From positions 124,001-188,000 of the forward strand of contig JADLBL010000015.1 in NCBI GenBank assembly GCA_020847735.1: a stretch of 64,000 nucleotides of DNA, written 5' to 3'. Below the pieces are notes generated by a model. That model made no database searches. It saw nothing but the letters and a program-made list of their open reading frames with translations, and had not been told where the DNA came from. This DNA is from Candidatus Eisenbacteria bacterium (lineage in GTDB: Bacteria; Eisenbacteria; RBG-16-71-46). The stretch's first letter is position 1. Each line of letters opens with the position of its first letter. Both the position numbers and the translations under genes were made by a program. This document shows, in pieces, positions 44,114 to 48,743 of this stretch.

Positions 44114-44845
44114 TCAGCGCGGACGCCAGGCGGGAATCCGGCCGCCGCAGCGATCGGCGACGGCGCCGCGGGTGAACCAGCGTTCACCCGACCGCACGAC
44201 GATCTTCTCCCCGGATCGGTACTGCACGGTCGCGCTGTGCCACTCGATGCAGACCGGCCGTTCGCAACCCGGCAGTCGGGGACGCCGCGCGCCGAGCAGA
44301 ATCCGGCCGAGGACATAACGCGTGCCCGCCCGGACCGGCCCCGCGTGTCCCATGGGCATGGCATAGATGCAGCGGAACCGGCCGCTCTCCGCCGAATGGT
44401 CGTACAGCGCCGTGCCGATGCCGCGCGTGGGCCAGGGTTGGGGTCCGGGCAGAGTCTCGTCGGGACCGAACTGAACCACCATTCCGCCGGTGTTGGCGCC
44501 GCCATGTTCCATCGCCCAGAAGTCGCCCAGGGTGTCGCCCGGCTGCGCATACACGTAGAACTCGGCCGCGACACCGTAGAAGGTGGACTCGTCGGTGGCG
44601 GGCTCGAAACACAGGTAGAGCGTGTCGCGATGCGCCGAATCGCCACAGGCCGGCCGGAGCGTCGTCACCGCCCCGGGCTCTCCCCAGGGCGCGCGTGCGG
44701 ACAGGAAGATCCGGTTCTGCCGCACCGCGGCGGGCCGCGTCGGCGGGCGCTGCGCGGCTCCCGCGGCCGGGGCCAGCTGCGCGACCAGCACCACGAACAG
44801 GCAGCGGGCGACGGCTGGACCGAATCGGCGCGGACGGTCGCTCAT
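44114..44845 (-). CDS. secreted Cys-rich protein, divergent member of the 44-49 kb paralogue family
   Basis: A 243-residue exported protein (signal RCLFVVLVAQLAPAAGA). The middle carries a beta-rich domain ending LPGCERPVCIEWHSATVQY, which aligns with the Cys-rich segment of the four paralogues upstream (Cys-x4-Cys followed by a hydrophobic strand). The C-terminus differs: RGAVADRC plus a basic tail instead of the W-G-x-K-x-LYR ending. It begins 7 nt after the preceding paralogue and would be last in that transcript. No known function; family membership is moderate. Confidence 0.7.
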   Translation of the reverse strand: MSDRPRRFGPAVARCLFVVLVAQLAPAAGAAQRPPTRPAAVRQNRIFLSARAPWGEPGAVTTLRPACGDSAHRDTLYLCFEPATDESTFYGVAAEFYVYAQPGDTLGDFWAMEHGGANTGGMVVQFGPDETLPGPQPWPTRGIGTALYDHSAESGRFRCIYAMPMGHAGPVRAGTRYVLGRILLGARRPRLPGCERPVCIEWHSATVQYRSGEKIVVRSGERWFTRGAVADRCGGRIPAWRPR

Positions 44846-44852
44846 CGGGTTC

Positions 44853-45560
44853 CTATCGGTAGAGGGACTTGATCTGGCCCCACGTGCGTGCGCGCGCAGG
44901 AACGATGCCGCATGCCGTGCCGGCTCCCCAGGTGGCCTGGTTGCCGAAGGCCGGCGAGGGCGTGACGAAGGCCGGAGGCGATCCGCCGGCCGCGCCCGGC
45001 AGACGCGTCACCTGGGCGGAGTTGAACACGAAGCACACCGGCGAGGTGCAGCCGGAGCACGTGGACGTGCCGACGAAGCGGATCGTCAGGATGCCGGCCA
45101 GGTAGGTCTCTCCTGCCGTCAGCGTGAAGGCATCCGCGCCTGCAACCCCCACTCCGAGGATCACGCGGAAATGGCGATCGTCCCCGCTCGGGCCCGGATA
45201 GATGAGGCTCTGAACCGTGGCCGAACCGCTCTGGGACCAGGCGTCCACGCAGTTCTCGCTGCCGGCGGGCAGCCCCGCGACGAACTGGGCCGGCTCCGTG
45301 TAGCGACAGCCTCCGGGCTGCACCTGCCACCAGGGCGGAAGGGGGGTCGCGTCCGAGGCGAAATCGAGCACCACCGTCCAGCCCACGACATCGGTGATGT
45401 CGGCGCCGGGAACGAACGACAGCATGAGCCGACGCTCGCCTGCCGCCGTCGCGCACAAGGCCGAGGGGTCCAGTGCGGCCGATCCGAAGGGCGCGCAGTC
45501 TCCCCAGCGGGCGGCGAGCTCGCCCTGCGCACGCACGGCGCCAGGCGTCGTGGTCGCCAC
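44853..45560 (-). CDS. secreted Cys-rich paralogue ending in WGQIKSLYR (5' end uncertain)
   Basis: The 235-residue reading from GTG at 45560 lacks a signal peptide, but in-frame codons upstream spell a hydrophobic core (LWLACLLACVATTTPGAVRAQG) just like an exported protein. No ATG, GTG or TTG exists in that stretch before an in-frame stop; a CTG at 45627-45629 in a GGGGGGACAGGA context is the only candidate, or a frameshift has occurred. The mature part has TCSGCTSPVC, as in the paralogues, and the C-terminal motif R-T-W-G-Q-I-K-S-L-Y-R. Follows the B hairpin. Function unknown. Confidence 0.78.
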   Translation of the reverse strand: MATTTPGAVRAQGELAARWGDCAPFGSAALDPSALCATAAGERRLMLSFVPGADITDVVGWTVVLDFASDATPLPPWWQVQPGGCRYTEPAQFVAGLPAGSENCVDAWSQSGSATVQSLIYPGPSGDDRHFRVILGVGVAGADAFTLTAGETYLAGILTIRFVGTSTCSGCTSPVCFVFNSAQVTRLPGAAGGSPPAFVTPSPAFGNQATWGAGTACGIVPARARTWGQIKSLYR

Positions 45561-45702
45561 GCAGGCGAGCAGGCAGGCGAGCCACAGGGTGGGGCCGGCA
45601 GGGAGGCCGAATTCGTAGGTGCGGTTCAGTCCTGTCCCCCCGATTCCTGCGATGCGCTCGACTCACCGGTGAGGATAGGAAACGACCTCGTGGTCCGCAA
45701 CG

Positions 45703-45735
45703 CGAACGGCCGCCCGGGAGACGGGCGGCCGTTCG
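45703..45735 (-). terminator. hairpin after paralogue B
   Basis: A perfect 14-bp stem (CGAACGGCCGCCCG) with a 5-nt loop lies 21 nt after the stop of the 45757 gene. No U-tract follows. Two related hairpins, differing by compensating base changes, lie after paralogues C and D. Confidence 0.75.
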
Positions 45736-45756
45736 TGGAGACAGATCTGAATCGGG

Positions 45757-46515
45757 TCAGCGGTAGAGGTTCTTGACCGCTCCCCACGTGCGATTCTGGG
45801 TCGGCGTGCCATCCGGGCAGTTGGTCGGCGAGCCATTCCAGGTGACCCAGCGCGACCTGCCGGGAGCCTCGTTCACGACCCGATAGTCGCCCATGCCCGC
45901 GGGCTGCTGGAGGAAGCACTCGTTGAGCACGAGGCAGGCGGCCAGGTCGCAGCCGGCGCACGAGCCAACGCCCGTGGACTTGGTGCGCGAGATGTTGACC
46001 TTGGAGACGAAGAGCTCGGATCCGTCCGCCGGTACGTTGATTTCACTGCCGGCCGGAATCGCCGCACCGCCGTTCAGCCGGACCGTGTTCGCCGCGTGGC
46101 CCTGAACGTTCGTGCCCTGCTGCGCCGCGAACACCGACAGGAGGATGCTGCCCTGCCAGATGTCCGGGCACGAGCCGGCCAGCACGACCGGGTCGAAGGA
46201 CATCGTGATGGCGTTCGGGCGGCACTGACCGGCATTGGTCTGCCACCAGTCGGGCAGCGTACCGCTCTCGATGGTGACGTCCACGATCGCCGAGGTGGCC
46301 GTGAACTTGGACATGGCGGTCGGCACGATGACCGACGTGAAGAGCGCGAAGCCGGCGCCCGTGTTCGCGTTGCAGGCCCACGTCATGCTCGAGGCGCCCG
46401 AACCGCCGGAAGCCGGAGAGCAGTCGTTCCAGTACAGCCCGAGTCCGCTCTGTGCCATCGCCGTGGACGCACTCAGGGCGAGCACCGCCACCACAAGAGT
46501 AATCAGTTTCTTCAT
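45757..46515 (-). CDS. secreted Cys-rich paralogue B ending in WGAVKNLYR
   Basis: A 252-residue exported protein starting at the ATG 46513-46515, preceded by ACCGGAGGA. Signal MKKLITLVVAVLALSASTAMA. The mature protein has an LYWNDC opening, a DWW motif mid-way, the C-x2-C-x4-C-x5-C segment (SCAGCDLAACLVLNEC) and the tail NRTWGAVKNLYR. Paralogues C and D share all of these. No known domain recognised; a beta-rich, disulphide-stabilised surface or secreted protein is inferred. The upstream in-frame extension to 46989 was dismissed since the signal peptide and ribosome site fix the start. Confidence 0.85.
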   Translation of the reverse strand: MKKLITLVVAVLALSASTAMAQSGLGLYWNDCSPASGGSGASSMTWACNANTGAGFALFTSVIVPTAMSKFTATSAIVDVTIESGTLPDWWQTNAGQCRPNAITMSFDPVVLAGSCPDIWQGSILLSVFAAQQGTNVQGHAANTVRLNGGAAIPAGSEINVPADGSELFVSKVNISRTKSTGVGSCAGCDLAACLVLNECFLQQPAGMGDYRVVNEAPGRSRWVTWNGSPTNCPDGTPTQNRTWGAVKNLYR

Positions 46516-46843
46516 CGGTTCCTCCGGTTTGAATCGGGCAGAAGCGTGTCGAACTTTCGAAGTCAGGCGGCGCGAAAACCAGTCCGGCCCCGGGGAGGTC
46601 GGATCGAGTATCGGGGTGGCACTCGCGCGGTGTGGACCGTTCACGCCCGACAGGCGTGCGCGGAAAAGCAGGAACGTACCGATGGCGAGTGACGGTCGGC
46701 GAACAGCGCTGGAAAACCGCGTTGGCCGTTCGGCGTGAGACCTCCAGTCCCTCCAAGGAGTGGAACACCGGTCATCAGCATCGAGTCGAAGGCGACACCT
46801 CTGGGGCGTGGCCGCCTCCGCTTCCCTGACAGCAAGCGGCGGC
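46516..46843 (-). other. long leader of paralogue B, no gene found
   Basis: About 330 nt between a good promoter (46844-46872) and the start of paralogue B. Several short open frames exist but none shows a ribosome site with a plausible protein. It ends with the CAAACCGGAGGA block preceding the ATG. A structured leader or attenuator is possible but not shown. Confidence 0.35.
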
Positions 46844-46872
46844 AGTATAGGAAAGCCCACGCCGCCGAGCAA
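46844..46872 (-). promoter_or_regulatory. sigma-70-type promoter of paralogue B
   Basis: On the minus strand TTGCTC, a 17-bp spacer and TATACT (plus-strand 46844-46849) match the consensus well. Transcription would start near 46837 and give a leader of about 320 nt. Confidence 0.5.
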
Positions 46873-46899
46873 CAGCCGTTGCACCGCCGCCCCCCCGCT

Positions 46900-46963
46900 C
46901 ACCCCTGCTGGCGTCGGCAGGCAGGGGTGGAACCTTGACCCGCATTCCACGGGTGGAAGCGGG
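46900..46963. other. two adjacent hairpins downstream of paralogue C hairpin
   Basis: A 9-bp stem CACCCCTGC/GCAGGGGTG (46900-46929) and an 11-bp stem CCCGC-TTCCAC/GTGGAA-GCGGG with one bulged A (46939-46963) lie between paralogue C's terminator hairpin and B's promoter. They may reinforce termination of C or belong to another small RNA. Confidence 0.45.
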
Positions 46964-46978
46964 CCGGTCCCCCAATGG

Positions 46979-47016
46979 CGAACGGCCACCCTCTCTGCCG
47001 GGAGGGTGGCCGTTCG
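46979..47016 (-). terminator. hairpin after paralogue C
   Basis: A 15-bp perfect stem (CGAACGGCCACCCTC) with an 8-nt loop, 18 nt after the stop of paralogue C. It matches the B hairpin with G-C to A-T compensation in the stem. No U-tract. Confidence 0.75.
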
Positions 47017-47034
47017 TGTTCTGAAGTGCAGTGA

Positions 47035-47763
47035 CTAGCGGTAGAGACCCTTGACCGCGCCCCACGTGCGGTTCCTGGTGGGCGTGGCCCCCTGGCACTG
47101 GACGGGGCTGCTGTTCAGCGCGACCACCGCGTTGACCGGCGTCGTCACCCGATAGACCGGGAAGCCCGCGGGCTGCTGGAGGTAGCACTCCTGAAGCGTG
47201 AGGCAGACTCCGACGTTGCATCCCGCGCACGAGCCGGCGCCGGTGCTCTTGGTGTGGCTGATGTTCAGCCGGGAAACGTTCAGCTCGGTGGTGCCGTCAG
47301 CCACCAGCGAGATTTCCGAGCCGGCCGGAATCGCGGCACCGCCGTTGAAGCGGACCGTGTTCGGCCCGTGCAGGAACTGCTGGGCCTGGAACACCGAAAG
47401 GTTGATCGAACCCTGCCAGATGTCCCCGCAGGCCGTGGCGAGGAGCGACGGGTCGAAGGACATGGTGACGGCGTTGGCTCGGCACTGACCCGGCGCGGTC
47501 AGCCACCAGTCCGGAAGCGCCGCGGCATCCACGGTCGCGTCCACGATCGCCGACGTCGCGGTGAACATCGGCATGTTCTCGGGGATCACCACCGACGCGA
47601 ATAGCACCTCCGAGCCGGTGTTCACGTCGCACGCGAAGGTGGCGGAAGACGTCCCGCCGTCCAGCGTGCAGCCATTGAAGTGCAGGTAGAGCCCGCCTGC
47701 CGCTGACGCGAGCGACGCTCCGAGCGCGAGCATGGCGAGGGTGAGGATCGCGGTCTTCTTCAT
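47035..47763 (-). CDS. secreted Cys-rich paralogue C ending in WGAVKGLYR
   Basis: A 242-residue exported protein. Signal MKKTAILTLAMLALGASLASA after ACCGGAGGA. Mature part: LYLHFNGC opening, PDWW segment, SFDPSLLATACGDIW, SCAGCNVGVCLTLQEC and the tail NRTWGAVKGLYR. Compared with B and D the central loop (QQFLHGPNTVRF) is slightly shorter. Each paralogue has its own spacing and its own hairpin, so they may be separate transcription units. No function is recognised. Confidence 0.87.
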   Translation of the reverse strand: MKKTAILTLAMLALGASLASAAGGLYLHFNGCTLDGGTSSATFACDVNTGSEVLFASVVIPENMPMFTATSAIVDATVDAAALPDWWLTAPGQCRANAVTMSFDPSLLATACGDIWQGSINLSVFQAQQFLHGPNTVRFNGGAAIPAGSEISLVADGTTELNVSRLNISHTKSTGAGSCAGCNVGVCLTLQECYLQQPAGFPVYRVTTPVNAVVALNSSPVQCQGATPTRNRTWGAVKGLYR

Positions 47764-47951
47764 TGCTTCCTCCGGTAGTCCCGACTGGGGGGTGAGGTGG
47801 CATGGCTGTGCAATTCAAGGTGCGGGATCGGATTGCCAACCTGACTTCGGACCCGGAGAGGTCTTGCGGAAGCAGCTTCCGACGGCCTGGACTCCTCTCG
47901 GGATGCAGGCCGGGTGCTGCCCGTGCGGACTCGGGGGCGTCCGGCCAGATG

Positions 47952-47983
47952 GGAACGGCCACCTCTTGCGAGGTGGCCGTCCC
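47952..47983 (-). terminator. hairpin after paralogue D
   Basis: An 11-bp stem ACGGCCACCTC/GAGGTGGCCGT with a TTGC loop, extended beyond one mismatch by GG/CC. It lies 17 nt after the stop of paralogue D and is homologous to the B and C hairpins. Confidence 0.72.
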
Positions 47984-47999
47984 TGAGCTGCGGTGAAGC

Positions 48000-48743
48000 T
48001 TAGCGGTACAGGTTCTTGACCGCGCCCCACGTGCGGTTCTGCGCGGGGGTCGGCAGCGGGCACTGCGCGACGCCGCCCTGCCACGTCACGAAGTTGCTGC
48101 CCGGGGTCGCCGCGTTGGTGACGCGGTAGTCACCCATGCCCGCGGGCTGCTGCAGGAAGCACTCGTTCAGCACGAGGCACGCGCCCAGGTTGCAGCCGGC
48201 ACAGCTGCCCGTGCCGGTGGACTTGGTGCGCGAGATGTTGACCTTGGAAACGAGCAGCTCGGTGCCGTCGGCATTGACGGTGATTTCGCTGCCGGCCGGA
48301 ATCGCGGCGCCGCCGTTCAGACGGACCTTGTTCGGACCGTTCGTGCCCTGCTGGGCGGCGAACACCGACAGGAGGATGCCGTCCGCCCAGATGTTCGGGC
48401 ACGAAAGCGCCAGCACCACCGGGTCGAACGACATCGTGACGGCGTTCGGTCGGCACTGGCCGGCATTCGTCAGCCACCAGTCGGGCAGCGTCGGGGCGTC
48501 AACAGCGACATCCACGATCGCCGACGTCGCGGTGAACTTCGGCATGGTCGTCGGAACGGCAACCGAGGTGTAGAGCGCGAAGCCGGCGCCCGTGTTCAAG
48601 TTGCAGGCGAACGTCTTCTGCTGGACGCCGGCACCGCCCGACGCCGCCGAGCAGTCATCCCAGTTGAGGTACAGGCCGCTCGCCATGGAGGCCGAGGCGC
48701 CGATGACCATCAGGGTGGCCGCGAGGGTAAGAATCTTCTTCAT
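48000..48743 (-). CDS. secreted Cys-rich paralogue D ending in WGAVKNLYR
   Basis: A 247-residue exported protein; signal MKKILTLAATLMVIGASASMA preceded by ACCGGAGGA. The mature part is closest to paralogue B: YLNWDDCSAASGG, KFTATSAIVDV, NAVTMSFDPVVL, SCAGCNLGACLVLNEC, LQQPAGMGDYRV and NRTWGAVKNLYR. Nine cysteines suggest disulphides in an exported protein. First in the run of five paralogues. Confidence 0.88.
   Translation of the reverse strand: MKKILTLAATLMVIGASASMASGLYLNWDDCSAASGGAGVQQKTFACNLNTGAGFALYTSVAVPTTMPKFTATSAIVDVAVDAPTLPDWWLTNAGQCRPNAVTMSFDPVVLALSCPNIWADGILLSVFAAQQGTNGPNKVRLNGGAAIPAGSEITVNADGTELLVSKVNISRTKSTGTGSCAGCNLGACLVLNECFLQQPAGMGDYRVTNAATPGSNFVTWQGGVAQCPLPTPAQNRTWGAVKNLYR

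Follow-up and report, generated by a model that had tools for sequence, protein, structure and literature searches.

The P1 to P5 gene array and its C-terminal tail

We analyzed a 64,000-nucleotide stretch of the genome of a Candidatus Eisenbacteria bacterium (GenBank assembly GCA_020847735.1, contig JADLBL010000015.1, positions 124,001 to 188,000; hereafter the window), in which an original prediction had described five neighboring minus-strand genes for exported proteins, most of them with a conserved extreme C-terminus. Gene calls were open reading frames (ORFs), and the genome-wide work relied on pattern and profile searches. All five ORFs are present on the minus strand, and each opens with a Sec signal-peptide-like N-terminus. 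P1 (48000..48743, 247 residues) is a cysteine-rich protein with a predicted beta-sandwich core and the C-terminus TWGAVKNLYR; its paralogs P2 (47035..47763, 242 residues) and P3 (45757..46515, 252 residues counted from its ATG) end in TWGAVKGLYR and TWGAVKNLYR, respectively, and P1, P2 and P3 share the C-x2-C-x4-C-x5-C segment and the DWW motif that had been reported for them. P4 (44853..45629) is a more distant paralog with 25% identity to P1, and its end was likewise recovered as TWGQIKSLYR. The start of P4 is uncertain: no ATG, GTG or TTG codon retains the signal peptide, and the 235-residue ORF opening with GTG begins within it, while a CTG at 45629, the probable start, yields a protein of 258 residues with a signal peptide. 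P5 (44114..44845, 243 residues) is, as anticipated, divergent; it lacks the tail, ends in IPAWRPR and is remotely homologous to the family core (profile E 3e-7; hhalign E 5e-6). P1 to P4 constitute one family with the common end T-W-G-x-[IV]-K-x-L-Y-R. Taking the tail as the 17 codons before the stop, it lies on the minus strand at 48003..48053 in P1, 47038..47088 in P2, 45760..45810 in P3 and 44856..44906 in P4, with the W-G-x-[IV]-K-x-L-Y-R core at 48003-48029, 47038-47064, 45760-45786 and 44856-44882, respectively. A terminator scan gave no more matches than expected by chance.

A modular tail on unrelated exported proteins

To count the tail we used a strict DNA pattern, W-G-x-[IV]-K-x-L-[YF]-R followed by a stop codon, with the reversed pattern as the control. 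The window's own genome contains 15 matches against none for the reversed pattern; every one of them closes an ORF exactly, and most of these proteins have bodies unrelated to the window family. Across 47 Eisenbacteria genomes the strict pattern gave 360 matches in 39 genomes (reversed, 0) and a relaxed form 809 matches in 45 genomes (reversed, 7), with up to 59 tails in a single genome, frequencies far above those of the background control. In correction of the original prediction, the tail is not peculiar to the window family, most of its carriers being unrelated to P1-P4. When the stop was no longer required, the strict pattern recovered 416 matches, of which 360 (87%) are followed immediately by a stop; within the window's own taxonomic family this holds for 207 of 212. 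Nearly all of the remaining cases that were fetched terminate 1-6 residues further on (for instance with REGTD) and one runs on, and we therefore rejected the idea of internal motif copies, nearly all of these being tails with short extensions. Such extensions imply that a free C-terminus is not strictly required. They also fit poorly with a strict free-carboxyl reading of the tail as the recognition site of a periplasmic tail-specific protease or quality-control factor, an explanation that its short, hydrophobic-basic and C-terminal character might suggest; as strong conservation on dozens of secreted proteins of abundant type is equally hard to square with a degradation tag, we regard this explanation as highly improbable. 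In one taxonomic family (L179-L187 in G008 and L188-L191 in G007) many tails carry 1-5 additional residues (REGTD, E, R, K), which recur between paralogs.

Signal peptides accompany the tail in 124 of 131 ORFs, versus 34% of 349 background ORFs scored with the same simple heuristic. A possible lipobox occurs in just 3 of 125 tail proteins, and a lipoprotein reading was rejected on this ground. The 117 tail proteins that were compared with Pfam fall into 34 families, and no single family accounts for more than 8 of the proteins; the bodies include beta-helix, lamin-tail, NHL, CHRD, plastocyanin and "choice-of-anchor" domains. Among their NCBIfam matches are the choice-of-anchor families C, E and J, whose name reflects their occurrence with differing C-terminal anchors. 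The tail is thus modular, C-terminally anchored, associated with signal peptides and phylum-wide. The earlier proposal that the conserved C-terminus may signal the sorting or assembly of a surface or secreted structure is supported in its sorting part, as none of the outcomes named beforehand as refuting it came about: the tail is almost confined to proteins with signal peptides, it is far more frequent than the background, and no profile library assigns it or the family to a known domain. With dozens of different cargos bearing the tail, there is no sign of one common surface structure.

A set of 170 non-redundant tails gave the consensus [TV]-P-[VTA]-E-x-[ST]-[TS]-W-G-R-[IV]-K-[AS]-L-[YF]-R, with conservation starting at about position -17. 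The invariance of W, G and K, like the restricted choice at the final residues, follows from the selection pattern; columns -17 to -10 are free of it and are conserved as well. In an AlphaFold2 model of P1 the tail is predicted with low confidence, outside the folded core. These features bear on the view that the tail is simply the last strand of a domain in one large protein family, conserved by ordinary descent. Homology over the whole protein within the window family would accord with it, but the 117 tail proteins have no common upstream domain, conservation ends near -17 and the tail falls outside the core of the model, making this the least probable of the explanations considered here; the narrower notion of one common domain was rejected outright since the bodies are unrelated. 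The tail also contains no membrane helix: a 15-residue window with a mean hydropathy of at least 1.8 occurs within the last 45 residues of only 1.2% of the 170 sequences. Further, whether taken as a strand or as a helix, the tail is more amphipathic than shuffled sequences.

Several known classes of tags, namely PEP-CTERM/exosortase, LPXTG/sortase, GlyGly-CTERM/rhombosortase and MYXO-CTERM/myxosortase, resemble the tail in placing one short C-terminal motif on many unrelated exported proteins of a genome (PMC1569441 for PEP-CTERM; PMC11980579 for MYXO-CTERM). Those tags, however, are tripartite, with a motif, a membrane helix and a basic cluster, and an exosortase-like tag was rejected because the tail has no membrane helix. 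Tail peptides searched alone matched nothing in NCBIfam and only weak, unrelated models in Pfam; no Pfam or NCBIfam model covers the tail, and in line with the earlier remark that no known domain was recognizable, the profile libraries place neither the tail nor the window family. A literature search found no paper with any of six common sequence forms of the tail. Hence, the tail is without description in the profile models and the literature searched, and what is new is a modular, phylum-wide element that replaces type IX secretion system (T9SS) domains on homologous bodies.

Among the matches listed, most of the named records that bear the tail belong to Candidatus Eisenbacteria metagenome-assembled genomes (MAGs), and one of these (L060) has the same match coordinates as G032, a genome from the window's own taxonomic family; one MAG labelled Latescibacterota has 12 matches, and none of the listed matches outside the Eisenbacteria group is from Bacteroidota. 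A nuclease-like family (ExeM/NucH N-terminal type) bears the tail in MAGs labelled Cloacimonadota, at about one per genome (L063, L089, L115, L155), for which transfer or an older origin of the tail are both possible. Of all carriers, the one conserved most widely across the phylum is apparently a small lamin-tail domain (LTD) protein, which has orthologs in many genomes and whose tail stays recognizable, though degenerate in some, even in genomes without a strict match; the copy in the window's own genome (G000:C15:190678-191400; L240, L297) lies about 2.7 kb past the right end of the window. Most genomes without a strict match retain a full or degenerate tail on this ortholog and match the relaxed pattern. 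Presence/absence profiling against "tail-less" genomes was accordingly dropped, the strict pattern being too narrow and most such genomes in fact possessing the tail.

Relationship of the tail to type IX secretion

All 47 Eisenbacteria genomes encode T9SS type A sorting domains, the window's own genome accounting for 91 of them, and the model of the SprA translocon, TIGR04189, was matched in 46 of the 47 (38 above cut-off) versus none of 14 controls; the own-genome SprA match scores 499.5 bits and is accompanied by neighbors. T9SS cargo domains were also found in 24 of 26 further pattern-bearing genomes drawn from the matches listed, the two exceptions being an archaeal MAG and a Methylococcaceae MAG, each with one chance-like tail match. 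The near-universal presence of T9SS cargo domains and SprA in Eisenbacteria contrasts with a review that calls proteins with a T9SS C-terminal domain (CTD) restricted to Bacteroidota (PMC10202324). Our literature search found no paper linking Eisenbacteria with type IX secretion.

On individual proteins the tail and the T9SS domains exclude one another. A home-made CTD profile detected no T9SS-like domain on any of 229 tail ORFs. A search with the bodies of tail proteins, which covered the fetched loci, recovered 210 homologs with the tail, 6 with a T9SS-like domain and 24 with neither signal; the last include several degenerate tails, out-of-frame ORFs and P5-like proteins. Where the swapped homologs have TIGR04183, their tail-bearing counterparts are without it. 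The clearest swap is seen in a single genome (G008), where L182 has the tail and its paralog L181 a T9SS domain (36.1 bits, cut-off 23); their alignment extends through LIGAWP[IV]GC and then breaks. Further pairs are L063/L071 and L092/L192, the T9SS domain of L192 scoring below cut-off. The window family itself supplies another instance, L214:552-2198 in genome G035, which combines a P0-like part (P0 being the gene upstream of the array, described below), a P1-like core and a FlgD/T9SS-like domain in one protein, with TIGR04183 below and FlgD_ig above cut-off in its C-terminal domain. Mutual exclusion and swapping on homologous bodies have thus been demonstrated computationally, and when C-terminal signals replace each other on one body, this is commonly taken to mean that they serve the same step. 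The swaps also bear on whether the tail instead acts as a docking peptide, in the form of an amphipathic strand or helix that attaches exported proteins to an envelope or matrix component on their arrival. Its amphipathicity and basic character, the lack of a membrane helix and its disordered position outside the fold in the model are all compatible with such a role; nevertheless, a docking peptide would call for a separate export signal, while tail proteins have no T9SS domain, and bodies exchange the one for the other. We therefore consider docking unlikely.

Given these observations, we propose, with a probability of roughly 0.58, that the tail of about 17 residues is a modular C-terminal sorting signal and most likely a short alternative T9SS signal. 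Sec would carry tail proteins across the inner membrane, the exposed, non-membrane tail would be recognized in the periplasm, and it would send the cargo either through the outer membrane or onto it. The machine would be the organism's T9SS with its SprA-type translocon, to which the tail may present a short alternative to the Ig-like (immunoglobulin-like) C-terminal domain of about 80 residues; both the routing function and the identity of the machine are what we infer from sequence comparisons. The tail shares with the type A CTD (TIGR04183, PF18962) its C-terminal position, diverse Sec-exported bodies, dozens of copies per genome, the presence of the translocon and mutual replacement, and differs from it in that the CTD is an Ig-like unit of about 70-100 residues with motifs A-E, while the tail has about 17 residues and no profile match. 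Type A domains are Ig-like; export needs their last 13 residues, and in one substrate the last 22 are enough to export green fluorescent protein (PMC10202324), which makes a short T9SS signal plausible. The same machine also accepts the alternative C-terminal signals of type B (TIGR04131/PF13585) and type C (cl41395) (PMC10202324); these, unlike the tail, are regions of about 100 residues with motifs of their own, and TIGR04131/PF13585 is not among the listed families of the 117 tail proteins (first 25 of 34 and 25 of 31). The tail works like the T9SS domains and the sortase-type tags, but we do not count it as a member of either, as it lacks those of their defining features that were open to examination: it has neither an Ig-like domain nor a membrane helix.

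Several points weigh against assigning the tail to the T9SS. The two share a phylogeny, and their co-occurrence may be explained by inheritance. An Ig-like domain is missing from the tail, and T9SS ends contain nothing that corresponds to its W-G. Of the six T9SS-like swaps, two (L192 and L214) score under the T9SS cut-off. Finally, the T9SS is, to our knowledge, universal in Bacteroidota, and the absence of the tail from that phylum among the matches listed implies that it is not a general T9SS signal. Some of these points would suit a modular sorting signal read by a separate machine of its own (a receptor, chaperone or outer-membrane transporter) that acts in parallel to the T9SS and delivers to the same compartment. 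The evidence for modularity serves this alternative equally well, as do the fact that tail and T9SS domain never occur on one protein, the absence of the tail, among the matches listed, from the Bacteroidota, which possess a T9SS, and the dissimilarity of the tail to the Ig-like T9SS domain. On the other hand, no candidate for such a machine lies beside the most conserved tail gene: by eye, the neighbors of the LTD gene have a housekeeping character (SmpB, glutamate racemase, RNase PH, an aminotransferase), and Pfam scans of several other neighbors revealed no secretion gene. Moreover, a second machine is not needed where the T9SS is present, as it is in every tested genome with convincing tails. 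A separate machine is hence a possible but clearly less probable explanation, and it is rather doubtful that the tail represents a new class of soluble tag of about 17 residues, without membrane helix or Ig-like domain, that is found throughout Eisenbacteria and read by a new machine rather than by the T9SS. The LTD gene neighborhood often contains SmpB-like and cell-wall genes.

C-terminal sorting signals reveal which proteins an uncultured bacterium secretes or displays on its surface, and in the Eisenbacteria, a phylum for which metagenomes are nearly the sole source, as many as 59 proteins per genome bear this tag. If the tail is a T9SS signal it would be an unusually short one and would show the minimal need of the machine; if it is not, a sorting machine remains to be discovered. 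Homologous bodies with either signal in one genome make the T9SS reading directly testable.

A weakly cohesin-like core and a dockerin-like partner gene

P1-P4 are best explained as one of the cargo families that use the tail, being small, cysteine-rich, predicted beta-sandwich proteins that are weakly cohesin-like and encoded beside a dockerin-like partner gene. Matches to their core were found in 19 of the 47 genomes, all from the window's own taxonomic family and often in tandem arrays. The model of P1 is a beta-sandwich (predicted local distance difference test score, pLDDT, 67.6) whose top fold matches in the PDB are cohesins (2vo8, E 4e-4, probability 0.99), with low TM-scores of 0.30 (query) and 0.47 (target). 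The core differs from cohesins in its several invariant cysteines and in having no sequence-family match, as no cohesin match was obtained for it in Pfam, NCBIfam or PDB sequences. The partner gene P0 (48896..49555, minus strand), identified as an ORF and from its sequence, encodes a tail-less, exported Ig-like protein with the C-terminus ..YCP, two dockerin-like loops and a weak Pfam match to Big_1 (E 0.025). This partner is conserved, with P0-like genes immediately preceding the family array, on its upstream side, at nine loci. The arrangement is seen in the window and in L052, L206, L209, L225, L227, L230, L231 and L241. Two loops of the D-x-[DN]-x-x-G type are visible in P0 homologs, with no dockerin match in Pfam, and the AlphaFold2 model of P0 is poor (pLDDT 42), there being too few sequences. 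The two modules are joined in the G035 protein L214, a fusion of a P1-like core and a P0-like module. A cohesin-dockerin-like pairing of the P1 core with P0 is accordingly offered as a lead and not as a result.

Most P0-like copies end in ..CP, and homologs at L053 and L067 end in a WG tail (SDWGRVKAFYR). Another tail protein of the window's own genome (L023:1000-1527, contig C26) has a body that is cohesin-like by eye. P5-like, tail-less remote paralogs end the arrays of other genomes as well (L208, L209, L227, L230, L231, L237), and many P5-like ORFs finish near a W-[KR]-P motif in place of the WG tail.

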